Source of the DNA: Bacteroidetes bacterium ADurb.Bin145
GTDB lineage: Bacteria > Bacteroidota > Bacteroidia > Bacteroidales > VadinHA17
Direction of reading: 5' to 3'
NCBI GenBank assembly: GCA_002070505.1
Contig: MWDJ01000002.1
Coordinates: 62,001-126,000 of the forward strand
DNA: 64,000 nt
The notes under the pieces are model-generated. The model was not told the origin of the DNA. It saw nothing but the letters and a program-made list of their open reading frames with translations, and did no database searches. Both the position numbers and the translations under genes were made by a program. Each line of letters starts with the position of its first letter. Within the stretch, counting starts at the first letter, position 1. Of the stretch, positions 39,808 to 54,475 are shown one piece after another.

Positions 39808-40638
39808 ATGGAAAACCTAAAAGAACATCCTCTATACCGGAAACACACGCTTGATACAGTAATGAGCTCATTATGGGAGTTTTACAGAAAGAAGTTTCTT
39901 GTATTGTTCATTACATCATTCATTCTTTCTGTCACCACGCATCTGTTAATGCTTAATTTCAACTTAACTGAACTTCAGAATTTCACCGATCCTATGGAAG
40001 TACTGGAAAAGGTAAGGGGTATGATACTGCCGATTGCAATAATCTCTGTTATAAGTCTCTATTTCACAGTTGTGCTGCAATATTATGTGATTTGCAATCC
40101 TGTTGACAGAGATATTACTATTTTATCATCAACATATAAATCCCTGAAGTATTTCCTCCCTTATCTTATAATAATTATCCTTCTTTCATTTTTTGGGTCC
40201 ATTGCTTTGGCACTGGGATTATTGGTTTTTATTATCGGGATATTTTTTGCGGCCTTATATATAGCCACCCTGTATATGTTTTTTCTGCCGGTTCTGATTG
40301 TTGAAGGCACTGATATAGGAAATGCTATAGCCAGAACGTTTTCCCTGGTTCATAAAAGATTCTGGATCAACATAGGATGGGTTGCCGTTTTTATAGTAAT
40401 ACTGATGGTCTTATCCGTGATTCTGTCAGGGCTCATACTTATTCCTTTCTCAGGAAGTTTCCTGAAGATAATGGTCAATCCTGAGGAAGCATCAACTATT
40501 ATGGATTTTGCATCAAATCCACTTTATATAATCCTTTCATCAGCAGCTAATGCCTTATATCTGCCGGCACTACCGATATTTGCTGCAATACTGTACTTTC
40601 ACGGCAGAGCCTCAGACGAGCCGGTCACTAATCCCTGA
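39808..40638 (+). CDS. Polytopic membrane protein, unknown function
   Basis: 276 residues with about six hydrophobic helices, the central ones (residues ~105-170) nearly continuous. The pattern FFLPVLIVEGTDIGNAIARTFSLVHKRFW before the fifth helix resembles membrane proteins of the glycerophosphoryl-diesterase-membrane-domain/DUF975 type, but I cannot name it with confidence. It is 28 bp after the UPF0316 gene and overlaps kduD by 11 bp tail to tail. Confidence 0.65.
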   Translation: MENLKEHPLYRKHTLDTVMSSLWEFYRKKFLVLFITSFILSVTTHLLMLNFNLTELQNFTDPMEVLEKVRGMILPIAIISVISLYFTVVLQYYVICNPVDRDITILSSTYKSLKYFLPYLIIIILLSFFGSIALALGLLVFIIGIFFAALYIATLYMFFLPVLIVEGTDIGNAIARTFSLVHKRFWINIGWVAVFIVILMVLSVILSGLILIPFSGSFLKIMVNPEEASTIMDFASNPLYIILSSAANALYLPALPIFAAILYFHGRASDEPVTNP

Positions 40639-41428
40639 TCTCATTCTCGCCCCTGACATATCCGAAGTTTGCAAGTATCCCGCCGTCGACATAAAGTATA
40701 TGACCATTCACGAAATTACTTGCCCGGGAGGCTAGGAAAAGAGCTGCATAGGCAACATCTTCTGGTTCGCCCCATCTTCCGGCAGGGGTGCGGGTCATTA
40801 CAAGATCATTGAAAGGATGTCCATTTTCACGTATCGGAGCTGTCTGCGCAGTGGCTATATAACCGGGACCAATACCATTGACCTGAATATTGAATCTGGC
40901 CCATTCGCACGTCATACTCTGGGTAAGAAGCTTAAGTCCGCCTTTTGCCGATGCATATGCAGAAACCGTGTTTCTTCCATAAACACTGAGCATGGAACAC
41001 ATGTTGATTATCTTGCCTGCCCTCTTTCTGATCATTCCGGGTGCAACTCTTTTTGAGACTATCATAGGTGCGACAAGATCGACATCTATGACCTGCCTGA
41101 AATCATCGACGGCCATGTCAAGAACGGGGATACGCTTAATTATCCCGGCGTTATTTACAAGTATGTCAACCGTACCGATATTCTCCTCTATCTGAGAAAT
41201 ACCAGCATTCACCTCATCCTCTCTTGTGACATTGAATTTCAAAGTATAGACCTCCAGGTTTTCTTTCGCATAAGCTTCTTTACAGGCCTCAATTTTTTCA
41301 TCCTGGATATCATTGACACATACTTTTGCCCCTGCTTTAGCCAGGACAATACCTATCGCAAGACCTATACCATGGGTGCCGCCTGTAACAAGTGCTGTTT
41401 TGCCGGTCAGATCAAATAATTCTTTCAT
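40628..41428 (-). CDS. kduD: 2-dehydro-3-deoxy-D-gluconate 5-dehydrogenase (SDR)
   Basis: 266 residues, a classical short-chain dehydrogenase: TGGTHGIGLAIG nucleotide loop, NNAG at about residue 91, catalytic Ser in NMCSMLSVYG and YASAKGG (YxxxK), ending with ASNFVNGHILYVDGG. KduD reduces 3-deoxy-D-glycero-2,5-hexodiulosonate to 2-keto-3-deoxygluconate, the last step before KDG phosphorylation in unsaturated-uronide breakdown. The call rests on the SDR family plus kduI directly upstream (55 bp, same strand). KdgK and KDPG aldolase are not in this window. Confidence 0.88.
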   Translation of the reverse strand: MKELFDLTGKTALVTGGTHGIGLAIGIVLAKAGAKVCVNDIQDEKIEACKEAYAKENLEVYTLKFNVTREDEVNAGISQIEENIGTVDILVNNAGIIKRIPVLDMAVDDFRQVIDVDLVAPMIVSKRVAPGMIRKRAGKIINMCSMLSVYGRNTVSAYASAKGGLKLLTQSMTCEWARFNIQVNGIGPGYIATAQTAPIRENGHPFNDLVMTRTPAGRWGEPEDVAYAALFLASRASNFVNGHILYVDGGILANFGYVRGENEIRD

Positions 41429-41483: not shown

Positions 41484-42320
41484 CTACTTAAGTGAATCAG
41501 GATACCGTACATCCATATCACCGTAATCAAGATTCTCTCCGGCCATTCCCCAGATAAAGGTATAGTTGGAAGTACCGGCAGCGCTGTGGATGCTCCATGA
41601 TGGAGATAAAACAGCCTGTTCATTCTTCATCCAGATATGACGTGTTTCATCCGGATCACCCATAAAATGGCAGACAGCCTGTTTATCCGGCACTTCAAAA
41701 TAGAAATATGCTTCCATACGTCTGTTATGCGTATGCACCGGCATTGTATTCCAAACGCTTCCAGGTTTTAGTTCTGTCATTCCCATCTGAAGCTGACAGG
41801 TCTCTACAACACTGTTGATAAGAAGTTTGTTGATTGTTCTGTGATTTGACGTCTCAAGACTTCCCAGAACAACAACCTCAGCTTCTTTGAGTGTAACTTT
41901 TTTTGAAGGGAATTTGTGATGGGCAGGAGCTGAATTTATATAGAGCTTAGCAGGATTCTTCGGATCAGCCGATGTGAATATCACATCCTTTGTTCCTTTT
42001 CCAAGGTACAATGCCTCCTTATGGCCAATGTTATAAGTTATTCCATCTGCTTCAACCAAGCATTCTCCCCCGATATTTATGATCCCCATCTCCCTTCTCT
42101 CAAGGAAATAAGGTGATTTCAGGTCATCGGCACTTTCCAGTTTCAAGGCCTTTTTTACAGGCATCGCCCCTCCCACCATGTAACGGTCATACATCGAGTA
42201 AACCATCAGCATATCATCGGGAATAAAGATCTTTTCTATAAGGAATTCCTTACGGATCCTCTCAGTGTCATAAGATTTCACATCGCATGGATGACCTGCA
42301 TATCTCAGTTCTATTTTCAT
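41484..42320 (-). CDS. kduI: 5-dehydro-4-deoxy-D-glucuronate isomerase
   Basis: 278 residues of the cupin-fold KduI family. The zinc ligands are H196, H198, E203 (PVHTHNRRMEAYFYF) and H245 (SPSWSIHSAAGT), the same numbering that I recall for the E. coli enzyme. It isomerises 4-deoxy-L-threo-5-hexosulose uronate, which forms spontaneously from the unsaturated uronic acid released by lyases or GH105/GH88 enzymes. It is 35 bp downstream of the lyase-like gene and followed by kduD, making a three-gene leftward operon. Confidence 0.96.
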   Translation of the reverse strand: MKIELRYAGHPCDVKSYDTERIRKEFLIEKIFIPDDMLMVYSMYDRYMVGGAMPVKKALKLESADDLKSPYFLERREMGIINIGGECLVEADGITYNIGHKEALYLGKGTKDVIFTSADPKNPAKLYINSAPAHHKFPSKKVTLKEAEVVVLGSLETSNHRTINKLLINSVVETCQLQMGMTELKPGSVWNTMPVHTHNRRMEAYFYFEVPDKQAVCHFMGDPDETRHIWMKNEQAVLSPSWSIHSAAGTSNYTFIWGMAGENLDYGDMDVRYPDSLK

Positions 42321-42355: not shown

Positions 42356-44437
42356 TTACTGGTTACCGGTTTCTCTTATGGCATTTTTAAAATCCAGAAT
42401 TACTTTTTCATTCTTGTAGTTAATTTCAACCTTATCCGAAGCAAATTCAGTCCTGGAAAACGGATTATCAAATCGCAGATAGTCATCTAAAGGAATGATC
42501 TCACCCTTAACCTGAAAATCTTTTGACCAACCATACTTCATTTCACCCAGGGAAGGAGAATTATATATTACATTTAATCCTTCACAATTTACTTTAGCTT
42601 TGCTTATGGCAGTAACAAAACGGGAAAAATCCTTCCAATCTGTTTTTGAACCCATCTCGACTATCCAGATATTTCCCCTGCCTTTTGCTATAAGATCTGC
42701 ATTTTCTTCCTTTTCATTCCATTCTGTTGGATTCCTTGAATACAAAGCTATATACCCATCGCCTTTCTTTCCGAAAATCCAGTTACCTTTTTCAATCACT
42801 TCATCAAAAGCATTCCTTGGGAAATAAGCATGTGTAAAAGGTATTGGCGGATCAGCGGGTACTAATTGATCCAGGGTGTTATAATATTCTTCCGAAAATT
42901 GCCTGCTCTTCTGTTCAGAACGTTTATATGGAAAAGGATTACTTTCAGGGATATCATAAATACAAAACAAAACATTTTTATATTGTGCTGCTTTTGGCAA
43001 TATTCCATTTCCGGCCCAATAATTAGGACGTGAACTTTCGTCCATTGAACCTGGATGATTGGTAAAAACAGTTGCATCAATACCAAGAGTTGCCTGCCAT
43101 ATATGCTGCTGGTAACCAGGACTGCCCGGCCTGAATTCCTGGGCACAGCTCAATGAATAATCAGCAGTTTTGTAAGTTTCGATATTTGTTTCTGTCATGG
43201 CATGAGCATCCAGTTCAGGTGTAATTATTTTTCCGTATTGCTGAACCTGTTGATCATAAACCATTCTGTATTTTTCGTAATCTCCACCCAGCCATACTCT
43301 GTATTTCTTTGTATTTTTTTCCATCATATCTACAATCGCCGGGTGAGCATAATCCTGAATACCTAAATATAAATTTGCAAATGATTCATCACAATATGAC
43401 AAACCATATTTATAAGCATCTTTTATATCAATACTTTGGCGTTGGTGAATCCTTAAGGGTACGGAATAATCATTGGCAATTTTTTGAATTATTTCAGGAC
43501 AACGATAAGAAGAAGTCGCAAGCGATACTGTGCCATTTGAAGCTCCGGTAAAAACACCCACACCGAAAATAAGTTTCATTGTTCCCAGGGTTCCTTCTCC
43601 TCTGGCACCTTTAATGGATCTTGTATAAGTTCTGCCATGTGAACTGGCAAAGACACCCTGAAAATTATGAAGCGCCATCTCAAATAACAATCCATCGATC
43701 AATAAACCTGCTCTGGCAGAAACTGTTTTATCTTCTGCAAAATCATACAAATTACATAGCGTCATCAAGTCCACCTCATAATAACTATGAGCAAGCCACT
43801 CACTCCATCCAAATCTAATCCTCCAATCTATCCATTGTTCCAAACGATCCAATGCATGTTGCATATGCCATCTCCCGTTCTGGCGGTTATTTGTGAAAAT
43901 TTCATCTTTTAACAACTGACCAGCTAAAAGTTCTACTGAATGAAAAGCCCCCTCATGGTTTTCAGTCCAATAGCATCGGCCGTCAAATCCAGGTTCTGTG
44001 TACCAGTATTTAAAATCCTTTAAGCACTGCAAAATGTCCTTTTTCTGCCTGTCGGTAATCAATGGAGTATCTTTATACAGATAATAAAGTCTAAGCAGTC
44101 CTGCAAGTATAAATTCATTTGTATCTTCATTCCTGTAAACAGTGTTTATCTGAGATTTAAGAACTTCATCATTCAATTGATTTCCTGATGCTAAACGAGC
44201 TATCTCATTAGATATTCCTCCTCTGCCTGACATATCAGGCTGACGGGAACAAAAATCCAAAAACAAAGCTTTCCGTTCATCATATGTTTTTTGCGGCCGT
44301 GGCCAGTATTCATCCTGAATTCTCTGTGGCGGCATATTTCCGGGTGATTGTGCATTCTCAACCATTCGATTTTGTGCCTGTGAATTTATTATGCATAAAA
44401 GACACAATAAAAGCATTATGGTTAATTTATTTTTCAT
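42356..44437 (-). CDS. Exported (alpha/alpha)-toroid protein, candidate polysaccharide lyase
   Basis: 693 residues with a cleavable signal (LLCLLCIINSQAQ). Residues ~40-380 are helix-rich with aromatic residues spaced as in an (alpha/alpha) toroid; residues ~430-690 are beta-rich, as in the C-terminal sandwich of multidomain lyases. Polar clusters that could form an active site are TENHE (N160, H161), a Tyr pair before Glu (YYEVD, 219-223) and SSHGRTY (H267, R269, Y271). I do not recognise it as a numbered PL family. Position at the head of the kduI-kduD operon and opposite GH105/uxaC strongly suggests it makes unsaturated uronides outside the cytoplasm. Function inferred. Confidence 0.65.
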   Translation of the reverse strand: MKNKLTIMLLLCLLCIINSQAQNRMVENAQSPGNMPPQRIQDEYWPRPQKTYDERKALFLDFCSRQPDMSGRGGISNEIARLASGNQLNDEVLKSQINTVYRNEDTNEFILAGLLRLYYLYKDTPLITDRQKKDILQCLKDFKYWYTEPGFDGRCYWTENHEGAFHSVELLAGQLLKDEIFTNNRQNGRWHMQHALDRLEQWIDWRIRFGWSEWLAHSYYEVDLMTLCNLYDFAEDKTVSARAGLLIDGLLFEMALHNFQGVFASSHGRTYTRSIKGARGEGTLGTMKLIFGVGVFTGASNGTVSLATSSYRCPEIIQKIANDYSVPLRIHQRQSIDIKDAYKYGLSYCDESFANLYLGIQDYAHPAIVDMMEKNTKKYRVWLGGDYEKYRMVYDQQVQQYGKIITPELDAHAMTETNIETYKTADYSLSCAQEFRPGSPGYQQHIWQATLGIDATVFTNHPGSMDESSRPNYWAGNGILPKAAQYKNVLFCIYDIPESNPFPYKRSEQKSRQFSEEYYNTLDQLVPADPPIPFTHAYFPRNAFDEVIEKGNWIFGKKGDGYIALYSRNPTEWNEKEENADLIAKGRGNIWIVEMGSKTDWKDFSRFVTAISKAKVNCEGLNVIYNSPSLGEMKYGWSKDFQVKGEIIPLDDYLRFDNPFSRTEFASDKVEINYKNEKVILDFKNAIRETGNQ

Positions 44438-44759: not shown

Positions 44760-46163
44760 ATGAAGACATTTATCAACGATGATTTTCTTCTTGGGAACAA
44801 GACTGCAAGAAGGTTGTATCATCAATATGCCGAAGATCAGCCCATAATAGATTTTCATTGTCACCTCTCGCCGCAGATGATCGCAGATGACAGGCAGTTT
44901 GACAGTATCACCCAGGCCTGGCTCGAAGGTGATCATTATAAATGGCGTGCGATGAGAACCAATGGTATTGATGAGAAATACTGCACTGGTAAAGCATCTG
45001 ATGAGGAGAAATTCAGAAAATGGGCTGAGACAGTACCTGTCACTATCGGTAATCCGCTGTATCACTGGACTCATCTGGAGCTTGCGAGGTATTTCGGGAT
45101 ATTTGATCTCCTGTCGCCTGAGACTGCTGATTCTATCTATAAAAGGGCAAATGAGCTCCTCAGGTCAAAGGAATACAGCATCCGCTCGCTTCTGACAATG
45201 GTTAAAGCTGAAGTGGTATGCACAACTGACGATCCCGCCGATAACCTTGAACATCATAAAAGACTCAAAGGTGCAATCGAAACAGCTATACTTCCAACCT
45301 GGCGGCCTGATAATGTGATCAAAACAGATGATACTCAGAAGTTCATAAATTACATTGAACGGCTCGGCAAATCAGCGGATATTGTAATAAATGATTTTAA
45401 CACTCTTGTTGAAGCACTGGAGAACCGTCACAAATTCTTTCATGAAATGGGTGGAAGATGTTCCGATCATGGGCTTGACAGGTTCTTTTTTACTCCTTAT
45501 ACTGCGTCTGAAGCAGATAAAATGTTTAAAAAGTTACTTAAAGGAGATTCTCTTAGCAGCGACGAATCGGAGAAATATAAGACAGCAATAATGACGGAAC
45601 TGTGCAGGATGAACCACAGAAGAGGATGGGTTCAGCAGTTTCATGTCGGGGCGCTGAGAAACAATAATTCCCGTATGTTCAGGCTGATGGGTCCGGACAC
45701 GGGGTGGGATTCGATAGCAGCACCACAGGATGCATTCAGGATGTCAAAATTCCTCAACTCTCTCGATGATACTGATCAGCTGGCAAGGACAATCCTTTAC
45801 AATCTCAATCCTGCCGACAACGAGATGATGGTAACAATGGCCGGCAATTTCAACGATGGATCGACAGCTGTAAAGGTACAATACGGACCTGCCTGGTGGT
45901 TCCTTGACCAGAAGAACGGAATGGAGAGACATATGAGGGACCTTTCATCACTCGGATTAATGAGAAGATTCATAGGGATGGTAACGGATTCCAGAAGCTT
46001 CCTTTCTTATCCGAGACATGAATATTTCCGTCGCCTTGCATGTAATTATATCGGCGAAGAGGTTGAAAAAGGACTAATTCCCGATGATGATGAACTTCTC
46101 AGACCCCTGATTGAAGGAATATCATATAAGAATGCAAAAGAGTACTTTGGTTTTAATAAATAA
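44760..46163 (+). CDS. uxaC: Glucuronate/galacturonate isomerase
   Basis: 467 residues, the usual length for UxaC. The amidohydrolase-fold metal motif is DFHCHLSP at about residue 27; other family segments are DDRQFDSITQAWLEGDHYKWRAMR, VCTTDDPADNLEHH, WRPDNV, RGWVQQFHVGALRNNN and AGNFNDGSTAVKVQYG. The enzyme converts D-glucuronate to D-fructuronate and D-galacturonate to D-tagaturonate in the cytosol. It is the first gene of the rightward operon and makes the substrates for the SDR and UxaE encoded downstream. Confidence 0.97.
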   Translation: MKTFINDDFLLGNKTARRLYHQYAEDQPIIDFHCHLSPQMIADDRQFDSITQAWLEGDHYKWRAMRTNGIDEKYCTGKASDEEKFRKWAETVPVTIGNPLYHWTHLELARYFGIFDLLSPETADSIYKRANELLRSKEYSIRSLLTMVKAEVVCTTDDPADNLEHHKRLKGAIETAILPTWRPDNVIKTDDTQKFINYIERLGKSADIVINDFNTLVEALENRHKFFHEMGGRCSDHGLDRFFFTPYTASEADKMFKKLLKGDSLSSDESEKYKTAIMTELCRMNHRRGWVQQFHVGALRNNNSRMFRLMGPDTGWDSIAAPQDAFRMSKFLNSLDDTDQLARTILYNLNPADNEMMVTMAGNFNDGSTAVKVQYGPAWWFLDQKNGMERHMRDLSSLGLMRRFIGMVTDSRSFLSYPRHEYFRRLACNYIGEEVEKGLIPDDDELLRPLIEGISYKNAKEYFGFNK

Positions 46164-46247
46164 ACCATCATCAGTCCTTATAATAAATTGAAAATTAAGA
46201 AAATAACAGATGATCTTCATGAAGGATATAAACTTACAAATCAGGAA

Positions 46248-47084
46248 ATGAACGATTTAAATTTAAAGGGTAAAGTCGCGGTAATAACCGGTGGTGCTGG
46301 TATTATCTGTTCGGAGATGGCAAAGTCACTTTCACAACAAGGTGTTAAAACTGCAATACTCGATCTCAACAGGGATGCTGCCGTCAGAGTAGCGAAAACA
46401 ATCGAGAAAGAGATAAAATCGCAGTGCATCGGACTTGCTGCAAATGTACTTGACAAGAAATCTCTTGAAGATGCAAAAGATGAGATAAACAGGATTTTCG
46501 GACCGGTGGATATACTCGTCAACGGAGCAGGAGGAAATTCACCTGCAGCTACAACAAAGGTAGAAAAGATAGAAGGATCGGAAGATCCTGCAGATACTTT
46601 CTTTGGGTTGCAGATCGAGGGATTTGATAAAGTATTCGATCTTAATGTAAAAGGAACAATAATTCCTACAATGGTCTTTGCCGTCGATATGGTGAAGAAA
46701 AGGTCGGGAGTTATAATAAACATTTCCTCAATGAATTCATACAGGCCCCTTACCAAGATTGCCGCCTATTCTGCCGCGAAAGCTTCTGTTAATAATTTAA
46801 CACAGTGGCTGGCTGTTCATTTTTCTAAAACAGGAATCAGGGTCAATGCAATTGCTCCCGGTTTTCTGCTTACAAACCAGAACCGCTTCCTTCTCGTAGA
46901 TGAGAAGACAGGAGAATCGACACCGAGAGGCAGGAAGATAATCAATAATACTCCTATGGAAAGATACGGTACAGCGGAGGAATTGACAGGTACATTGTTA
47001 TATCTTGCGTCGGATCTTTCCAGGTTCGTTACCGGTGTTGTGATCCCGGTAGACGGGGGATTCAGTGCATACTCGGGAGTGTAA
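46248..47084 (+). CDS. SDR-type D-mannonate oxidoreductase (fructuronate reductase)
   Basis: 278 residues from ATG 46248 (MNDLNLKGKVAVITGG), preceded by AGGA; a TTG-initiated reading from 46188 would add 20 residues unlike other SDRs. Motifs: TGGAGIICSEMA nucleotide loop, NGAGGNSPA, catalytic NISSMNSY and YSAAKAS (YxxxK), and the closing VTGVVIPVDGGFSAYSG. The GAGG-NSPA-AT insert followed by a long loop (residues ~95-125) is typical of the SDR group annotated as D-mannonate oxidoreductase, which replaces UxuB. It should reduce fructuronate to D-mannonate. It is 84 bp after uxaC and before the LarA homologue. Confidence 0.85.
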   Translation: MNDLNLKGKVAVITGGAGIICSEMAKSLSQQGVKTAILDLNRDAAVRVAKTIEKEIKSQCIGLAANVLDKKSLEDAKDEINRIFGPVDILVNGAGGNSPAATTKVEKIEGSEDPADTFFGLQIEGFDKVFDLNVKGTIIPTMVFAVDMVKKRSGVIINISSMNSYRPLTKIAAYSAAKASVNNLTQWLAVHFSKTGIRVNAIAPGFLLTNQNRFLLVDEKTGESTPRGRKIINNTPMERYGTAEELTGTLLYLASDLSRFVTGVVIPVDGGFSAYSGV

Positions 47085-47242
47085 CCAGGGAGCAGGGGGC
47101 AGGGAGCTTGGAGCTCGGAGCAATGCGACGATTCCGCGACAGCGGAAGGTGAGAGGTGAGCGATGAGAGATGAGAGGTGAGTGGTAAGTTAGTGAAAGAA
47201 AGTAAGCGAAGAAGGGGAATCAAGTATTTGAAATTATCTTAA
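47085..47242. repeat. G-rich degenerate tandem repeats between the SDR and larA-like genes
   Basis: The gap begins with a degenerate 7-8 bp GGGAGCA pattern (47089-47122) and continues with GTGAGAG/GATGAGA units (47150-47188). An imperfect palindrome, TTCCGCGACAGCGGAA, lies between them (47131-47146). No terminator T-run follows. The repeats interrupt what otherwise looks like one operon, so an internal promoter or processing site here is possible. Confidence 0.6.
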
Positions 47243-48520
47243 ATGAGAATGATTTATTATCAGAGAGGCTCGGAAAATAGTGTTATTGATTCACAAAGTC
47301 TTGAGGAGGGATTGTTTTCGGCGCTCGATAAGATCGGGAAGAAAAAGAAAGTGCTTGTTGTACCGCCTGACCAGACCCGGATACATTCACGCGCCGGCGA
47401 GATTACAGCTCTTCTGTACAAGTACTATAAAAATGATCTCAAGGATATTCTTCCCGCGCTGGGCACTCATACGCCAATGACTAACAATCAGATCGGTGAG
47501 ATGTTCGGTGATATTCCCAGGGATCTGTTCCGTGTCCACGACTGGAGGAAAGATGTTGTCACAGTGGGTACAGTCAGCGGAGATATGGTTTCGCAGATCA
47601 CAAACGGGGCTCTTGATTACTCATGGCCGGCTCAACTTAACAAGATTGTTCTTAATGGAGGCCATGACCTTATTCTCTCAGTCGGACAGGTAGTCCCGCA
47701 TGAGGTGATGGGAATGGCAAATTATAACAAGAACCTCTTTGTCGGTACGGGCGGCCATGAAGGTATCAATAAAAGTCATTTCATTGCCGGTGTATATGGC
47801 ATGGAGAACCTGATGGGGAAAGCGGATAATCCTGTAAGAGGGATGCTTAATTATGCTGCCGGCAATTTTATCCCGCATCTTCCGGTGATATATATTTTAA
47901 CTGTAATAGGGTATGATGATTCCGGTAAGCTTGTCATCCGAGGTCTTTTCATAGGCGATGATATACAGGCCTTCTATAAAGCTTCAGAACTTTCACTTAA
48001 GGTCAATTTCACGGTATTCGACAAGCCTCTTCGCAAAGTTGTTGTGTACCTTGACCCTGTTGAATACAAAAGCACATGGCTTGGAAATAAAAGTATTTAC
48101 AGAACCAGAATGGCGATGGACGATGGTGGCGAAATAATCGTACTGGCGCCCGGACTTAAGGAATTCGGCGAGGATAAGGAGATCGACAGACTTGTCAGAA
48201 AATATGGTTATATAGGGACTCCCGCAGTGCTCGAAGCTGTCAGAAAAAATGAAGAACTGAGACAAAACCTGGGTGCCGCTGCACACCTGATCCATGGTAG
48301 TTCCGAAGGCAGATTCTCCGTAACTTACTGCCCCGGGCATCTGAGCAGGGAGCAGATAGAATCAGTTAAATTCAGATATCACAGTCTGGTAGATGCTTTA
48401 AAGAAATATGATCCGCACAAGATGAAAGACGGATTCAATATGATGCCTGACGGAGAGGAAGTTTTTTATATTTCAAATCCATCACTCGGGCTCTGGAGTT
48501 CAAAAGCACGTTTGGGATGA
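47243..48520 (+). CDS. LarA-family nickel-pincer hydroxyacid racemase/epimerase homologue
   Basis: 425 residues, full length for LarA (DUF2088). The residues of the nickel-pincer site are in place: PPDQTR near residue 41, H76 (GTHTPMT), H153 (VVPHEVMG), K163 (NYNKNLFVG) and H179 (INKSHF). The H-10-K-16-H spacing equals that of the Lactobacillus plantarum enzyme (H174, K184, H200 from memory), where the Lys carries the cofactor and the last His binds nickel. LarA homologues racemise or epimerise C2 of alpha-hydroxy acids, and one characterised group is a D-gluconate 2-epimerase. Placed between mannonate dehydrogenase and 6-phosphogluconate dehydrogenase, D-mannonate to D-gluconate is the likely reaction. 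The cofactor genes larB, larC and larE are not here. Confidence 0.85.
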   Translation: MRMIYYQRGSENSVIDSQSLEEGLFSALDKIGKKKKVLVVPPDQTRIHSRAGEITALLYKYYKNDLKDILPALGTHTPMTNNQIGEMFGDIPRDLFRVHDWRKDVVTVGTVSGDMVSQITNGALDYSWPAQLNKIVLNGGHDLILSVGQVVPHEVMGMANYNKNLFVGTGGHEGINKSHFIAGVYGMENLMGKADNPVRGMLNYAAGNFIPHLPVIYILTVIGYDDSGKLVIRGLFIGDDIQAFYKASELSLKVNFTVFDKPLRKVVVYLDPVEYKSTWLGNKSIYRTRMAMDDGGEIIVLAPGLKEFGEDKEIDRLVRKYGYIGTPAVLEAVRKNEELRQNLGAAAHLIHGSSEGRFSVTYCPGHLSREQIESVKFRYHSLVDALKKYDPHKMKDGFNMMPDGEEVFYISNPSLGLWSSKARLG

Positions 48521-48565
48521 TCTGATGAACCTTAAATAAACGAATTTGAAACAATTTTGAAAGTA

Positions 48566-50020
48566 ATGAATAAATTATCTGACATAGGATTGATAGGACT
48601 GGCAGTAATGGGCGAGAACCTTGTGCTCAATATGGAAAGCAAAGGCTTCAGAGTAACTGTTTTTAACAGGACAGTGCAGAAAGTTGATGATTTTATTAAC
48701 GGAAGGGCCAAAGGCAAAAATATTACCGGAGCTCACTCGATTGAAGAGTTCGTTGCTTCGCTGAGCCGTCCGAGGAAGATAATGATAATGGTTAAGGCAG
48801 GTAATGCCGTGGATGATATGATAAACACCCTGATTCCACACCTTGAGCCGGGAGACATAATTATCGATGGCGGGAACACACATTTTCCTGATACAAACAG
48901 GAGGACCGCATATGTAGAGAGCAAAGGTCTTCTCTATATCGGGACAGGTGTCTCCGGTGGTGAAGAGGGAGCTTTGCTTGGTCCCTCTATTATGCCCGGA
49001 GGTTCCAAAGCAGCATGGCCTGCTGTTAGACCGGTTTTCCAGGCTATAGCTGCCAAAGTGGAGGACGGTTCACCATGTTGCGACTGGGTAGGTGAGAATG
49101 GAGCCGGACATTTCGTAAAGATGGTTCATAATGGCATCGAATACGGCGATATGCAACTTATCTGCGAGGCTTACCAGGTAATGAGGGACCTTCTGAAAAT
49201 GACAGCAGACGAAATGCATCTTGTATTCAAAGAATGGAATGAGGGTGATCTGAACAGTTACCTTATTGAGATAACGAGGGATATCCTTGCTTTCAGGGAC
49301 ACTGACGGGCATCCTCTTGTTGACAAGATACTTGACACTGCCGGTCAGAAAGGTACGGGCAAATGGACAGGTATTGCTGCTCTTGATCTTGGAATTCCTC
49401 TGACCCTGATTGGTGAAGCAGTATTCTCAAGGTGTCTTTCTGCAGTAAAGGACGAGAGAGTAAGGGCGTCGAAGATCCTGCATGGACCTGATTCTGCCCT
49501 TCCCGGAAAGAAATCTCAGTTCCTGAACGATCTCAGAGACGCTCTTTATGCTTCAAAGATCGTTTCGTATGCCCAGGGATATTCACTGATGAAAGCAGCT
49601 GCAGAAGAATATAATTGGGACCTGAACTATGGAGGCATAGCTCTTATGTGGAGAGGCGGCTGCATAATCAGGTCAGCATTTCTCGGGAAAATAAAAGAAG
49701 CTTTCAATAATGATCCTTCAATAACTAACCTGCTGCTTGATCCTTTCTTTAAGGAAAGGGTTGAAAAAGCCCAGGAAGGATGGCGGAGGATTGTTGCATC
49801 GGCAATTTCAAACGGTATACCTGTACCCGCGATGTCATCAGCTTTGGGTTATTTCGACGGTTACCGCTGTGAAAAGCTCCCTGCCAATCTGCTGCAGGCT
49901 CAGCGCGACTACTTCGGTGCTCATACTTATGAAAGAACAGATAAGCCAAGAGGGGAATTCTTCCACACGAACTGGACCGGAAGAGGCGGAGCAACTTCAT
50001 CTTCGACTTACAATGTTTAA
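48566..50020 (+). CDS. gnd: 6-phosphogluconate dehydrogenase, decarboxylating
   Basis: 484 residues from ATG 48566 (MNKLSDIGLIGLAVMGENLVLNM); an in-frame TTG three codons earlier is unlikely. Motifs: GLAVMGENL NADP loop, DGGNTHFPDTNRR, GVSGGEEGALLGPSIMPGG, the catalytic Lys in FVKMVHNGIEYGDMQ, GTGKWTGIAALDLGIP, and the C-terminal ANLLQAQRDYFGAHTYER ending as in long-form Gnd. It oxidises 6-phosphogluconate to ribulose 5-phosphate and CO2. Its place inside a hexuronate operon, with no zwf or pgl neighbour, suggests the substrate comes from gluconate, which needs a gluconokinase encoded elsewhere. Confidence 0.97.
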   Translation: MNKLSDIGLIGLAVMGENLVLNMESKGFRVTVFNRTVQKVDDFINGRAKGKNITGAHSIEEFVASLSRPRKIMIMVKAGNAVDDMINTLIPHLEPGDIIIDGGNTHFPDTNRRTAYVESKGLLYIGTGVSGGEEGALLGPSIMPGGSKAAWPAVRPVFQAIAAKVEDGSPCCDWVGENGAGHFVKMVHNGIEYGDMQLICEAYQVMRDLLKMTADEMHLVFKEWNEGDLNSYLIEITRDILAFRDTDGHPLVDKILDTAGQKGTGKWTGIAALDLGIPLTLIGEAVFSRCLSAVKDERVRASKILHGPDSALPGKKSQFLNDLRDALYASKIVSYAQGYSLMKAAAEEYNWDLNYGGIALMWRGGCIIRSAFLGKIKEAFNNDPSITNLLLDPFFKERVEKAQEGWRRIVASAISNGIPVPAMSSALGYFDGYRCEKLPANLLQAQRDYFGAHTYERTDKPRGEFFHTNWTGRGGATSSSTYNV

Positions 50021-50041
50021 GCTCAAATAAAAACAAAAATT

Positions 50042-51442
50042 ATGTCAGCCACTTCAATCAGTGAAACTATCGGGAAATACAGGTGGACAATATGTGCACT
50101 GGTCTTTTTCGCTACAACTGTCAACTATTTCGACCGGAATGTTTTAGGCCTCCTGAAACCTGTTCTTTCTGAAGAGGGTATCTTCGGTGCAGATAAGGCT
50201 AACCAGGAACTTTATTATTCCTGGGTCGTCATGAGTTTCCAGATCGCATATGCCATAGGTATGACAATTGCAGGAAGATTCATTGACTGGATTGGCACGA
50301 AAAAAGGTTATGCATACTCTCTTCTGGGATGGAGCTTTGCCGCAATTGGTCATGGACTCGCCTATAACACATTTACTTTCGGAATATGGCGAGCTGCTCT
50401 TGGTCTCACGGAAGCCGGAAATTTCCCGGCAGCCAACAAGACAATTGCAGAATGGTTCCCTAAGAAGGAAAGAGCTTATGCAACCGGAATTTACAACTCC
50501 GGAACAAATATAGGTGCAATCGTCACTCCCCTTTTCGTTCCCTGGATAGCTATGCACTGGGGATGGAAATGGGCCTTTATTTTTGTCGGTATCATCGGAC
50601 TCAGCTGGTTGTTCTTTTGGTACAGGATTTATGCTTCTCCGGATCAAAAACTAAAGGCAGGTAAATTATCTCAGAAGGAATACGATTACATACACAGTGA
50701 CATTGATGAGAAAGCCGATGTAGATAAAGCCACGGAAAAGGTATCCTGGGCTAAGCTACTAACATATCGTCAGACATGGTCCTTTTTTCTGGGTAAGTTC
50801 CTGACTGACCCGGTATGGTGGTTCTATCTGTTCTGGCTGCCGGCTTTCCTCAGTGGTGAGAATGCAAGAAAAATCGAACAATTCAAGGCATTGAATCCGA
50901 ATTTTTCCGGCGATAATTCAGATATTCCCGGTATAATAACCTGGACACTTGCTGTAGCTGTAGTCTATACTATTTCCACTATCGGTTCAGTTTACGGAGG
51001 ATGGCTGCCTAAGAAATTCATAAATGGCGGTATGGCAACATACAAAGCCCGCAAACTGTCAATGTTCATCTATGCCCTGTTTCCGCTGACTGTTTTATTT
51101 GCCAGCTGGTTAGGCAAATATAACACATGGTATGCAGTTCTTGTTATAGGGCTTGCCTGCGCTGCACATCAGGCATGGTCGGCAAATATTTTTACAACCG
51201 TATCCGATATGTTCCCCAAAAAGGCTGTCGCATCGGTAACGGGTATCGGCGGAATGGCCGGAGCTGTAGGTGGTATTCTCGTGGCACAATCGGCAGGTCT
51301 GCTTCTGAAACATTATACTGCTCTGGGCAGAATCGAGGCAGGTTATTCTATGCTGTTTGTGTACTGCGGACTGGCATATGTCGGAGCGTGGGTAGTTATG
51401 CATTTTCTCATTCCCAGGATGAAAAGAGTAGAGAACCTGTAA
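50042..51442 (+). CDS. MFS hexuronate transporter (ExuT-like, ACS family)
   Basis: 466 residues with about 12 hydrophobic helices. The N-terminal part (WTICALVFFATTVNYFDRNVLGLLKP) and the first-loop motif (GRFIDWIGTKKGYAYSLLGWS), followed by GLTEAGNFPAANKTIAEWFPKKERA and GIYNSGTNIGAIVTPL, are typical of anion:cation symporters such as ExuT and GudP. A large central loop lies near residues 200-240, and a second loop near 275-300 carries an insertion (ALNPNFSGDNSD). It should import galacturonate/glucuronate with H+. The operon position, 21 bp after gnd and before uxaE, fits. Confidence 0.9.
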   Translation: MSATSISETIGKYRWTICALVFFATTVNYFDRNVLGLLKPVLSEEGIFGADKANQELYYSWVVMSFQIAYAIGMTIAGRFIDWIGTKKGYAYSLLGWSFAAIGHGLAYNTFTFGIWRAALGLTEAGNFPAANKTIAEWFPKKERAYATGIYNSGTNIGAIVTPLFVPWIAMHWGWKWAFIFVGIIGLSWLFFWYRIYASPDQKLKAGKLSQKEYDYIHSDIDEKADVDKATEKVSWAKLLTYRQTWSFFLGKFLTDPVWWFYLFWLPAFLSGENARKIEQFKALNPNFSGDNSDIPGIITWTLAVAVVYTISTIGSVYGGWLPKKFINGGMATYKARKLSMFIYALFPLTVLFASWLGKYNTWYAVLVIGLACAAHQAWSANIFTTVSDMFPKKAVASVTGIGGMAGAVGGILVAQSAGLLLKHYTALGRIEAGYSMLFVYCGLAYVGAWVVMHFLIPRMKRVENL

Positions 51443-51484
51443 AAGATCATCATTCGTTTCATAACTGATGAAGATAATTGCTTC

Positions 51485-52738
51485 ATGAAAACACTCGGAA
51501 AATATTCTATCGGAATGGGCGATCGATTTGGCCGCCAGGGCAGTGCCCAGCTGAAAGCTGTAATAGAAGCCGGAACTAAGGGCATCGATATAACACCCGT
51601 CTGGAATAAATCCAACAGGGAACATATGATAATCGGAACCCGGCCTGATGATGTAAGAAAAGAAGCTGACGAGGTCACAAAAAAAGCTGGTTTTACTAAA
51701 CCCTATTTCGTGGACGCTGATCATATTAACCTTGACACTGTTGACAGGTTCATAGACTGTTCCGATTTCTTTACGATCGATGTGGCTTCATATATCGGCA
51801 ATAAAGCAGATGAGGAGAAGATTGAGGAATTTGTGATCCGGTCAATGGTATATTCTGGTAAAATACGATTTAACGACATTGCAGAACCGATTGAGGTATC
51901 CCTTAAAAAAATAAAAAACATAGCTGAGAAATACCTGTTTGCAGCACTGAAAGCCCGGGAGATATATGAAATAATTGAAAAAAAGAAAGGAAAGGGAAAT
52001 TTTGTTACCGAAGTATCCATGGATGAAGTGCCTCATCCTCAGACACCTGTCGAACTGCTTTTCATTCTCAAGATGCTTGGTGATCTAAAAATACCAGCTC
52101 AGACCATTGCTCCCAAATTCTCAGGAAGGTTCAATAAGGGAGTTGATTATTCAGGCGATCCCGATAAATTTGCCGCTGAGTTTGAATCTGATCTGATGGT
52201 AATTGACTATGCAATTAAGGAGTTTGGGCTCCCGGATAATCTTAAGATGAGTATTCATTCCGGTTCCGATAAGTTTGCCATTTACCCTTACATAGGATCA
52301 ATCATAAGGAAGCACGATAAAGGTATTCATTTGAAAACTGCAGGTACCACCTGGCTTGAAGAGGTTACAGGCCTGGCTCTTTCAGATGGAGCGGCGCTTG
52401 AATTCGTAAAGGAGATCTATTTCAGTTCCCTCGAGAAAACTGACGAATTATGTGCGCCTTATGCCGATGTTATTGATATTGATAAGTCCGGATTGCCATC
52501 AGTGAAAGAAGTATCAGGCTGGAGCAGCAAAAAATTTGCTGATTCAATAAGACATGTAGAAGGGAACAGCGATTATAATCCAAATATAAGGCAGCTCATT
52601 CATGTAGCTTATAAGCTCGCCGCTGAGAATTCGGATAAATTTTTCATACTGCTGGCTGAGAACAGTAAAACTGTCGCAGAATGCGTTTTTGAGAATTTGT
52701 ATAACAGGCATATATGCAGATTGTTTGATATCAGATAA
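51485..52738 (+). CDS. uxaE: Tagaturonate/fructuronate epimerase (UxaE family)
   Basis: 417 residues, matching the UxaE family: LGKYSIGMGDRFGRQGSAQLKA at the start, TPVWNKSNREH, PYFVDADHINLDTVDRFI, VSMDEVPHPQTPVELLFIL, IAPKFSGRFNKGVDY, and KMSIHSGSDKFAIYP. The His/Asp/Glu residues in DADHI, DEVPHPQT and HSGSDKF are the likely metal and proton-transfer sites. UxaE interconverts D-tagaturonate and D-fructuronate, which lets galacturonate enter the glucuronate/mannonate branch without a separate altronate pathway. Start ATG 51485; it is the last sugar gene of the rightward operon. Confidence 0.92.
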   Translation: MKTLGKYSIGMGDRFGRQGSAQLKAVIEAGTKGIDITPVWNKSNREHMIIGTRPDDVRKEADEVTKKAGFTKPYFVDADHINLDTVDRFIDCSDFFTIDVASYIGNKADEEKIEEFVIRSMVYSGKIRFNDIAEPIEVSLKKIKNIAEKYLFAALKAREIYEIIEKKKGKGNFVTEVSMDEVPHPQTPVELLFILKMLGDLKIPAQTIAPKFSGRFNKGVDYSGDPDKFAAEFESDLMVIDYAIKEFGLPDNLKMSIHSGSDKFAIYPYIGSIIRKHDKGIHLKTAGTTWLEEVTGLALSDGAALEFVKEIYFSSLEKTDELCAPYADVIDIDKSGLPSVKEVSGWSSKKFADSIRHVEGNSDYNPNIRQLIHVAYKLAAENSDKFFILLAENSKTVAECVFENLYNRHICRLFDIR

Positions 52739-53278: not shown

Positions 53279-54475
53279 TTACCTGTCAAGTTCAATAGCA
53301 GCAATTATAAAGGCACCAACTCCCTTTGTATCATTATCCACGCGTTTTTCTCCTATATAATATTCATATGAACCATCGCGGTATGGATTGCCTCCCAGTC
53401 CGCATCCCCCGCAGATATTATGCATTGTAATGATCCCTTTTTCATCGACAGTGATAAGTTCTTTCAGAATGGCATCGAATGAATCATTGGCTATGTCAAG
53501 ATACTTCTTATCGAGATATCCCAGTTTCGCACCCTTCGCATAAACGTAAGTATACATTGCCGATCCTGATCCTTCAATGTAGTTGCCTTCTCTCCCACCC
53601 ATGTTAAGGACCTGATACCAGAGCTTTTTTTCAGGATCCCTCACTTTCATCAGTGCATCACAGGTATTCCTCAGTATTGAGATCAGATCTTCCCGGCCGG
53701 GGTGACCGGCAGGAAGATAATCAAGGATATCAACAATGGCCATTGTATACCATCCAATAGCCCTGCTCCAGGGATAATGCGACTTCCCGGTTTCCGGATC
53801 ACACCATTTCTGCTGGTGGCTCTCGTCCCATGCATGCATCAGCAAACCGGTAGCCGGATCAAGAGTCTTTTCATATATCAGTTTTGTGTTCATCACCGCA
53901 ACGTCGTACCACTCCGGGGCGTCAAATTCTTTTGCGTACTGAACCATATATGTCGAACCCATATAAATACCATCGAGCCACATCTGCCACGGATAGATCT
54001 GCTTGTGCCAGTAGCCTCCTGATTTAGTTTCCGGATGTGTTTTTAACTGTTCAATAAAGTTATCAAGAGCTGTTTTATATTTCTGTTCCGGATGCCTCCT
54101 GTATACAGTCATTACATTTCGTCCCGGATAAATCCTGTCAAGATTATATTCCTGCATTGAATAATCAATTACAGACCCGTCATCCCTGACGAAATAATTA
54201 ACCCAGTCTTCCATATAATCCGAGTACTTTTTGTCAACATTTCCGAGACGGTCGATTGCCATGCCGAGGAAAGCAACATCGTACGCCCATCTAGGTCTGC
54301 CTTCGACATAATGAATAAGGCTGTCGGCAAGGGTCATTACATTTTCGGCCATCTTTATTGACCAAAGGTTCTCAGTACCCTTCCTGGTCCCGGTTCTTCC
54401 TGTACATGATCCCGATGTTATCAGCAGAAGTGAGAGTACAATACCACAAATTATGAATATTACCTGTTTCATCAT
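53279..54475 (-). CDS. GH105 unsaturated glucuronyl/galacturonyl hydrolase, lipoprotein
   Basis: 398 residues with a hydrophobic leader and Cys (LLLITSGSC), probably lipidated. The (alpha/alpha)6-barrel of GH105 is recognisable: RPRWAYDVAFLGMAID, PWQMWLDGIYMGSTYM with the catalytic Asp, MHAWDES, WSRAIGWYTMAIVDILDYLP and NYIEGSGSAMYTYVYAKG. It removes the unsaturated uronic acid left at the non-reducing end of oligosaccharides by polysaccharide lyases, yielding the substrate of KduI. It lies convergent with the uxaC operon and downstream of the msbA-like gene (21 bp), which may drive it. Confidence 0.93.
   Translation of the reverse strand: MMKQVIFIICGIVLSLLLITSGSCTGRTGTRKGTENLWSIKMAENVMTLADSLIHYVEGRPRWAYDVAFLGMAIDRLGNVDKKYSDYMEDWVNYFVRDDGSVIDYSMQEYNLDRIYPGRNVMTVYRRHPEQKYKTALDNFIEQLKTHPETKSGGYWHKQIYPWQMWLDGIYMGSTYMVQYAKEFDAPEWYDVAVMNTKLIYEKTLDPATGLLMHAWDESHQQKWCDPETGKSHYPWSRAIGWYTMAIVDILDYLPAGHPGREDLISILRNTCDALMKVRDPEKKLWYQVLNMGGREGNYIEGSGSAMYTYVYAKGAKLGYLDKKYLDIANDSFDAILKELITVDEKGIITMHNICGGCGLGGNPYRDGSYEYYIGEKRVDNDTKGVGAFIIAAIELDR

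Follow-up and report, generated by a model that had tools for sequence, protein, structure and literature searches.

An exit of hexuronate catabolism from D-mannonate via D-gluconate to 6-phosphogluconate was proposed for Thermotoga maritima, with UxaE, UxaD, GntE and GntK as its enzymes (Rodionova et al., 2012). The gntE gene of T. maritima is said to sit between the genes for fructuronate reductase and gluconate kinase, and the GntE2 protein belongs to group 20 of the LarA family. The epimerase activity of GntE2, which accepts unphosphorylated D-mannonate, was demonstrated in 2020; groups 19 and 20 were reported to convert D-mannonate to D-gluconate, a signature shared by groups 18–20 was given, and group 18 was hypothesized to act on a hexonate (PMC7583248). 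Another related system is the isomerase-phosphoketolase pathway of Lactobacillus suebicus, in which a kinase, followed by an epimerase acting on 6-phosphomannonate, was shown by activity rather than by gene (Valk et al., 2020; PMC6978723). Here, we describe a stretch of 64,000 nucleotides (hereafter, the window) from Bacteroidetes bacterium ADurb.Bin145 (assembly GCA_002070505.1, contig MWDJ01000002.1, positions 62,001 to 126,000), in which a LarA of group 18 is encoded next to gnd in an operon with uronate genes. The assembly (G000; the window is G000:C2:62001-126000) comprises 3.95 Mb in 218 contigs and is 92.5% complete.

A hexuronate operon with a putative epimerase of LarA group 18

Six genes on the same strand (44760–52738) form a tight operon, with intergenic gaps, in order, of 24, 158, 36, 21 and 42 bases:

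44760..46163, + strand: uxaC, uronate isomerase (galacturonate to tagaturonate, glucuronate to fructuronate); PF02614, 663 bits; NF002794, 621 bits (cut-off 387)
46188..47084, + strand: short-chain dehydrogenase/reductase (SDR) of the fructuronate reductase/D-mannonate oxidoreductase type; NF006132 D-mannonate oxidoreductase, 393 bits (cut-off 281)
47243..48520, + strand: larA group 18, putative nickel-pincer hexonate 2-epimerase; NF052594, 645.2 bits (cut-off 500)
48557..50020, + strand: gnd, NADP-dependent decarboxylating 6-phosphogluconate dehydrogenase; TIGR00873, 782 bits (cut-off 427)
50042..51442, + strand: major facilitator superfamily (MFS) transporter, hexuronate (ExuT)-like; PF07690; best NCBIfam match TIGR00893 galactonate transporter, 178 bits (below cut-off 395)
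51485..52738, + strand: uxaE, tagaturonate/fructuronate epimerase; PF16257, 181 bits

A preliminary description of this DNA had placed the system at 46248..50020. These positions lie within the cluster, 46248 being a possible alternative ATG start of the SDR gene, and the cluster was found to be wider, extending from uxaC to uxaE with kduI and kduD divergent upstream. The genes named in that description do lie on one strand, as their coordinates and family matches show, and it was also right that the locus lacks uxuA, none of the six operon genes being of this kind, and that gnd occurs without zwf, which is absent from the operon and had no match in the genome either. A gluconokinase is likewise missing from the six genes. 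UxaC, UxaE, a fructuronate reductase, a LarA-type epimerase and Gnd are all encoded together, as expected of a route of the T. maritima kind.

We consider it likely that the operon serves the breakdown of hexuronates, with an exit into pentose phosphates; this Bacteroidota gene set probably turns pectin-derived sugar acids into gluconate by means of a nickel enzyme, the gluconate then being burned through the pentose phosphate pathway. In the proposed sequence, 1) UxaC and UxaE would bring galacturonate and glucuronate to fructuronate, 2) the SDR would reduce fructuronate to D-mannonate, 3) LarA, with a nickel-pincer cofactor made by LarB, LarC and LarE, would invert C2 to give D-gluconate, 4) a kinase of the PfkB family, its gene lying in trans next to pgi, would form 6-phosphogluconate, and 5) Gnd would decarboxylate it to ribulose 5-phosphate with formation of NADPH. 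Unsaturated uronates released by lyases would be handled separately, through KduI and KduD to 2-keto-3-deoxygluconate (KDG) and a KDG kinase. One phosphorylation, at C6, separates the proposed product of LarA from the substrate of Gnd. We infer each of these reactions in the source organism, and the substrate of the kinase, from the observed genes, families, conserved residues, larBCE presence, co-occurrence and adjacency.

The window LarA was found to match the NCBIfam model NF052594, 'nickel-dependent putative hexonate epimerase' (NPN_18), at 645 bits, above the curated cut-off of 500, against merely 52, 37 and 33 bits for malate and lactate racemase models. The pincer-site residues H76, H153, K163 and H179 reported earlier were confirmed. 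When aligned with GntE2 (4NAR; 131 bits), the cofactor residues R46, K163 and H179 and the catalytic residues D43, H76, H153 and K283 match (the catalytic numbering of GntE2 being our own mapping), and the substrate positions E154, W279 and N342 are as in GntE2. The hexonate-type signature (EV/S in a loop, Trp in alpha-11, A/V in alpha-14) is represented by E154-V155, W279, N342 and A346-A347. The key residues are invariant across 16 aligned sequences (the window protein and 15 relatives). The nearest named relatives of this LarA come from Bacteroidales metagenome assemblies (73% identity). The accessory genes larB, larE and larC, which the preliminary description had left to be sought elsewhere in the genome, were all found, contiguous at G000:C5 (LarB 304, LarE 294, LarC1 215 and LarC2 142 bits, each above cut-off).

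Because of the NF052594 match, the GntE2 residues and the 2020 study of groups 18–20, the enzyme assignment is reasonable, and it is already a putative function in a curated database. Judged by family and conserved residues, the window LarA would interconvert D-mannonate and D-gluconate. It shares with the described LarA groups 18–20 and GntE the family, the cofactor and catalytic residues, and the loop Glu, Trp and Asn of GntE2 (PMC7583248, PMC11770544). However, the activity of group 18 is there a hypothesized one, and in the window protein Asn282, which precedes the catalytic Lys, and Val155 replace Gly286 and Ser156 of GntE2. The available portions of these two papers contain no mention that we found of the Bacteroidota operon or its kinases.

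Conservation of the operon and its candidate kinases

LarA18 was matched in all 19 genomes searched in the genus, in 17 above cut-off; the gene is in two pieces in G013 and cut at a contig end in G005. In a phylum sample of 392 Bacteroidota genomes, each at least 90% complete, LarA18 was above cut-off in 23, the window genome included. The loci of the 22 others were fetched and annotated with our own BLAST queries. All but G206 and G044 have gnd within two genes of larA (20 loci), so that clustering of larA with gnd does occur in other Bacteroidota.

Other genes were observed around larA and gnd. Transketolase directly follows gnd in four of 20 phylum loci (L153:9676-11673, L154, L157 and L162; one family-checked), a gene order in keeping with a feed into the pentose phosphate pathway. 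Six loci (L151:9633-10799, L122:5121-6281, L152:11317-12459, L157:6460-7602, L154 and L163) have a PdxB-like 2-hydroxyacid dehydrogenase between larA and gnd, which was above the PdxB cut-off in both of the two scanned. In the genus of the window, this slot is mostly filled by a GFO/IDH/MocA oxidoreductase, though not in the window itself. One idea is that a dehydrogenase between larA and gnd would rescue a 2-keto acid leaking from the LarA reaction.

Which enzyme would carry out the phosphorylation? For the kinase step of the preliminary description, a PfkB candidate that elsewhere adjoins larA can be offered, but no gluconokinase was recognized from the two families searched: TIGR01313 had no match in the window genome, and none of the five FGGY kinases (of six) scanned with TIGR01314 reached the cut-off (best, 229 of 648.55 bits). 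A classical gluconokinase was set aside; the six FGGY kinases resemble glycerol kinase, fuculokinase, xylulokinase, a XylB-like kinase, a rhamnulokinase-like protein and ribulokinase, the last label being a guess from neighbours and length for the unscanned protein. The XylB-like kinase (L040), encoded beside an ATP-binding cassette transporter, is the best remaining FGGY candidate.

A kinase was found between the SDR gene and larA in 17 of the 22 loci, and it belongs to one of three groups: a PfkB clade, PfkB_gnt (five loci), a second PfkB clade, PfkB_4 (ten), and a phosphofructokinase-type protein, PFK (two). A gene of the haloacid dehalogenase (HAD) family separates kinase and larA in four of these 17, and 16 of them have gnd within two genes of larA. 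PfkB_4 lies elsewhere in the cluster in two loci (G390 and G289). In G092, a PFK and a HAD gene belong to a uxaC-uxaE cluster found some 17 kb from larA on its contig. As a separate observation, a HAD-family protein of about 296 residues (L003:8870-9760, L161:8638-9528, L170:6872 and L166:3883) accompanies PFK in all 14 PFK loci seen; it also occurs once with PfkB_gnt and once with PfkB_4.

PfkB_gnt was detected in six of the 392 genomes (E up to 1e-60), all of them among the 23 with LarA18 (probability 2e-8 if genomes are taken as independent, relatedness being ignored). In the five other than the window genome, its place is between the SDR gene and larA: immediately before larA in four, and separated from it by a single HAD gene in the fifth. 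PFK was likewise detected in six genomes (E up to 1e-80). All six belong to the 45 in which some LarA was matched (1.7e-6 on the same assumption of independence, again ignoring relatedness), and in five PFK is within two genes of larA; the larA of G209, G406 and G416 is not of group 18. Compared with solved structures, the non-group-18 LarAs of G406 (with PFK) and G230 (with PfkB_4) gave 214 and 229 bits to 4NAR (window LarA, 131), and those of G209 and G416 fall with them in one well-supported clade; PFK and PfkB_4 therefore also pair with GntE2-like LarAs.

Of the 19 genomes from the genus of the window, 13 have PfkB_gnt and five the operon PFK; none has both, and G002 (75% complete) has neither. 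The PfkB_gnt gene is in the operon beside uxaE in G009. In ten of the other 11 genus loci fetched for it, that of the window genome (G000:C6:113199-114275) included, a same-strand gene of 447–482 residues lies directly upstream, the eleventh locus being cut at a contig end; in the window genome, this gene encodes glucose-6-phosphate isomerase (pgi) by family.

In a tree of 56 LarA proteins, with kinase labels assigned from genome-wide or locus evidence, the kinase label was found to require at least 18 changes and the PFK label eight, four of the latter being forced by well-supported branches, in a tree whose bootstrap had not settled. The tree left out G005 (truncated larA), included G013 as half a gene, and contained six of 17 loci with a LarA below cut-off (11 out: L178-L186, L188 and L189) and seven of 19 cross-phylum loci (L002-L006, L008 and L016, all with gnd; 12 out). 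That one slot has changed its kinase again and again suggests a reaction common to all of them. We tentatively suggest, while thinking it somewhat more doubtful than probable, that several exchangeable kinases act together with the LarA hexonate epimerases, namely those of two PfkB clades and a PFK-fold protein whose pyrophosphate (PPi)-type motifs would make it a PPi-driven gluconate (or mannonate) kinase, and that these have been swapped several times at one operon slot.

Both PfkB clades are nearest to KDG kinases, yet just 26–36% identical to the KDG-kinase-like paralogues of the window genome. PfkB_gnt is the less likely KDG kinase: it scores 171 bits against the kinase portion of NF041633, a model for an aldolase-kinase fusion, whereas a KDG-kinase-like paralogue, 26% identical to it, scores 500 bits and has relatives beside kduD in G003, G004, G010 and G011. 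PfkB_4 could be a KDG kinase in loci with 2-keto-3-deoxy-6-phosphogluconate (KDPG) aldolase, although the PfkB_4 loci of G357, G065 and G402 also hold a KDG-kinase-like protein, PfkB_2. The PfkB at G000:C6 stands, by association, as a candidate for phosphorylation of gluconate at C6.

How does this locus compare with the two described systems? The hexuronate network of T. maritima is alike in its UxaE epimerase, fructuronate reductase, LarA-family epimerase and proposed exit to 6-phosphogluconate (Rodionova et al., 2012), and the route was therefore not new when first read from this DNA, GntE2 activity having been shown in 2020. The window differs in its LarA group, 18 instead of 20, and in its candidate kinase, a PfkB in trans, relatives having one of the three kinase groups at the locus; the kinases of this step thus apparently come from families that one would not have expected. 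The L. suebicus pathway also joins an upper isomerase route at mannonate to 6-phosphogluconate dehydrogenase, but has the kinase before the epimerase and a phosphoketolase downstream (Valk et al., 2020). In the available literature that we found on such kinases or on hexonate, gluconate or mannonate 2-epimerases, no PfkB- or PPi-type gluconokinase is described; the pathway idea is thus known, and the host group, the LarA group and the candidate kinases are new. The findings extend a pathway inferred in Thermotoga to Bacteroidota with pectin and uronate genes, give LarA group 18 a testable role, and supply specific proteins that may fill the kinase step. By this route, galacturonate would be a source of NADPH and pentose. 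The variant of Valk et al. (2020; PMC6978723) is described by its authors as redox-cofactor-neutral as far as ribulose 5-phosphate, a property that matters for pectin fermentation. If the PFK-type protein does phosphorylate a sugar acid, a very well-studied kinase family would gain a new substrate class and possibly a PPi-driven reaction.

Order of steps, kinase substrates and the KDG exit

The main alternative to epimerization first, and in our judgement an unlikely one, is that D-mannonate is phosphorylated first and LarA18 is a 6-phosphomannonate 2-epimerase that supplies 6-phosphogluconate to Gnd. Both activities were measured in L. suebicus extracts (PMC6978723), and LarA18 could be an epimerase of that kind; the available portions of the LarA superfamily literature that we found hold no assay of group 18. 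The gene order SDR-kinase-larA, seen in 17 of the 22 loci and accompanied in 16 of these by a nearby gnd, also matches such a sequence of steps literally. However, LarA18 has the loop Glu, Trp and Asn of GntE2, which takes unphosphorylated D-mannonate, and in G406 and G230 kinases of two of the groups are encoded near LarAs that have GntE2 as their closest relative of solved structure. These residues and pairings favour epimerization first, though not decisively.

A further reading, rather improbable in our view, takes the PfkB and PFK proteins near larA as phosphofructokinases that pass fructose 6-phosphate from the pentose phosphate pathway into glycolysis, the hexonate kinase being another enzyme. 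The operon PFKs do score above the PRK14072 PPi-phosphofructokinase subfamily cut-off of 273 (367 bits in L003 and 365 in G254), and they keep the TIDND and MGR motifs, Asn-Asp-Ser after GG and Lys before TIDND, of which the Asp and Lys presumably mark PPi-dependent enzymes. Also retained is a Gln-Arg pair around the position of E. coli R252, another phosphate contact, and PfkB adjoins pgi in the genus of the window. At the position aligned with E. coli PfkA R162, which we take to be the sugar 6-phosphate anchor, a manual reading of the alignment gave Pro in all ten operon PFKs, against Arg or Lys in seven of nine comparison PFKs (the remaining two having Gln and Gly), and about five residues are inserted after TIDND. 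The Pro and the insertion point, by alignment, to a substrate lacking a 6-phosphate, against which the retained Gln-Arg pair speaks. The phosphofructokinase reading would, in addition, leave the step from LarA to Gnd without an enzyme in these loci, and the window genome already has four other PFK-family proteins (two above equivalog cut-offs, a third above a subfamily cut-off, the fourth just below). The PfkB clades, moreover, have their closest relatives among KDG kinases, enzymes that act on a related acid of six carbons. The candidate kinases share the superfamilies of KDG kinases and PRK14072 enzymes but differ from the former in identity and from the latter in the anchor position and the insertion. 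A second PFK clade with PPi-type motifs (L076-L080), 35–37% identical to the operon PFK, was seen in several genus members and not among the fetched larA loci.

Several observations weigh against a pentose-phosphate exit fed by LarA, beginning with the remaining means of using mannonate and KDG. One UxuA relative was found in the window genome (G000:C56; L037:3274-4407), with 224 bits to the subfamily model NF003027 (cut-off 191) and 159 bits to the equivalog TIGR00695 (below its cut-off of 199.55). It carries a twin-arginine translocation (Tat) signal and, in the alignment, keeps the His, Cys, His and Asp columns of the family, which we take to be metal ligands; this protein with intact-looking ligands could use mannonate outside the cytoplasm. 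The earlier statement that uxuA is missing thus applies to the locus, a UxuA-family protein being encoded elsewhere in the genome. As a side observation, an adjoining enolase-superfamily relative of sugar-acid dehydratases has a signal-like N terminus, and the two proteins (L037:2010-4407) are apparently exported sugar-acid dehydratases. UxuA-family matches were obtained in seven of the 19 genus genomes and in none of the other 12. In the annotated loci, for which a true UxuA served as query (uxuA_L027, 577 bits to TIGR00695), uxuA, larA, gnd and a kinase share one cluster in G020, L004 and G406. The genome also encodes a KDG-kinase-like protein (500 bits to the kinase part of NF041633, below cut-off against KDG-kinase models), and the window contains, divergent to the operon:

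41484..42320, - strand: kduI, 5-dehydro-4-deoxyglucuronate isomerase; NF002091, 435 bits (cut-off 250)
40628..41428, - strand: kduD-like SDR, its role assigned by position beside kduI; best NCBIfam match NF005488 'gluconate 5-dehydrogenase', 426 bits (cut-off 369), KduD models below their cut-offs

Since KduI, KduD and the KDG-kinase-like protein are encoded, the KDG exit probably coexists with the proposed one, and the claim that the KDG/Entner-Doudoroff exit is replaced cannot be kept in its simple form, the UxuA relative also being present.

The remaining counter-evidence concerns distribution. Among the 19 genus genomes searched, zwf had no match in the window genome, G003, G007 and G013 but is present in 15, so Gnd there has another source of 6-phosphogluconate; the completeness of 92.5% makes absences in the window genome weak evidence. 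The PfkB gene lies outside the window operon, with pgi as its usual neighbour in the genus, and the fetched stretches of G044 and G069, both with LarA18, held no kinase of the three groups. In a control of 22 genomes with LarA below cut-off, 17 loci were fetched (G284, G034, G194, G288 and G352 falling outside); 12 showed none of the three kinase groups, mostly in a different context, five had one (PFK in G416, G209 and G406; PfkB_4 in G230 and G085), and gnd above 50% identity was found in six. Across phyla, 12 of 19 loci with relatives 51–63% identical to the window LarA had no gnd beside larA (L007, L009-L015 and L017-L020; the sequence of L015 stops at larA, that of L011 is short, and L013 encodes, at a greater distance, a gnd-like protein of only 27% identity). 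All 12 are from outside Bacteroidota, namely Planctomycetota, a Spirochaete and Kiritimatiellia, where LarA may possibly have another use. The core of the preliminary description—mannonate to gluconate by LarA, then a kinase and Gnd—is nevertheless well supported by NF052594, larBCE, the absence of a zwf match and larA near gnd in 20 of 22 genomes; to be amended are its novelty, the kind of kinase, no gluconokinase having been recognized in the two families searched, and the KDG exit, which is retained.

The ordinary KDG route, in which a dehydratase encoded elsewhere takes mannonate, LarA acts on another hexonate and gnd is a general pentose-phosphate gene here by chance, draws on the UxuA relative with its conserved metal-ligand columns, on the KDG-kinase-like protein and on uxuA being kept beside larA and gnd in G020 and L004, but is very improbable given that 12 of 19 genus genomes have no UxuA-family match while all 19 have LarA18, that larA and gnd are within two genes in 20 of 22 genomes, that the window genome has no zwf match, and that its UxuA relative bears an export signal.

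Neighbouring genes of the uronate locus

The gene pair kduI and kduD lies upstream of uxaC together with a third divergent gene, for a protein of 693 residues, and one further gene of the locus is found downstream of the operon:

53279..54475, - strand: hydrolase of glycoside hydrolase family 88 (GH88), probably for unsaturated uronyl ends; PF07470, 294 bits

The 693-residue protein (42356-44437, - strand) is predicted to be secreted and forms part of the uronate locus. It had no match in Pfam, NCBIfam or PDB sequences, nor by BLAST against the compared loci L001-L020 and L111-L192, and is possibly a new polysaccharide-degrading enzyme.

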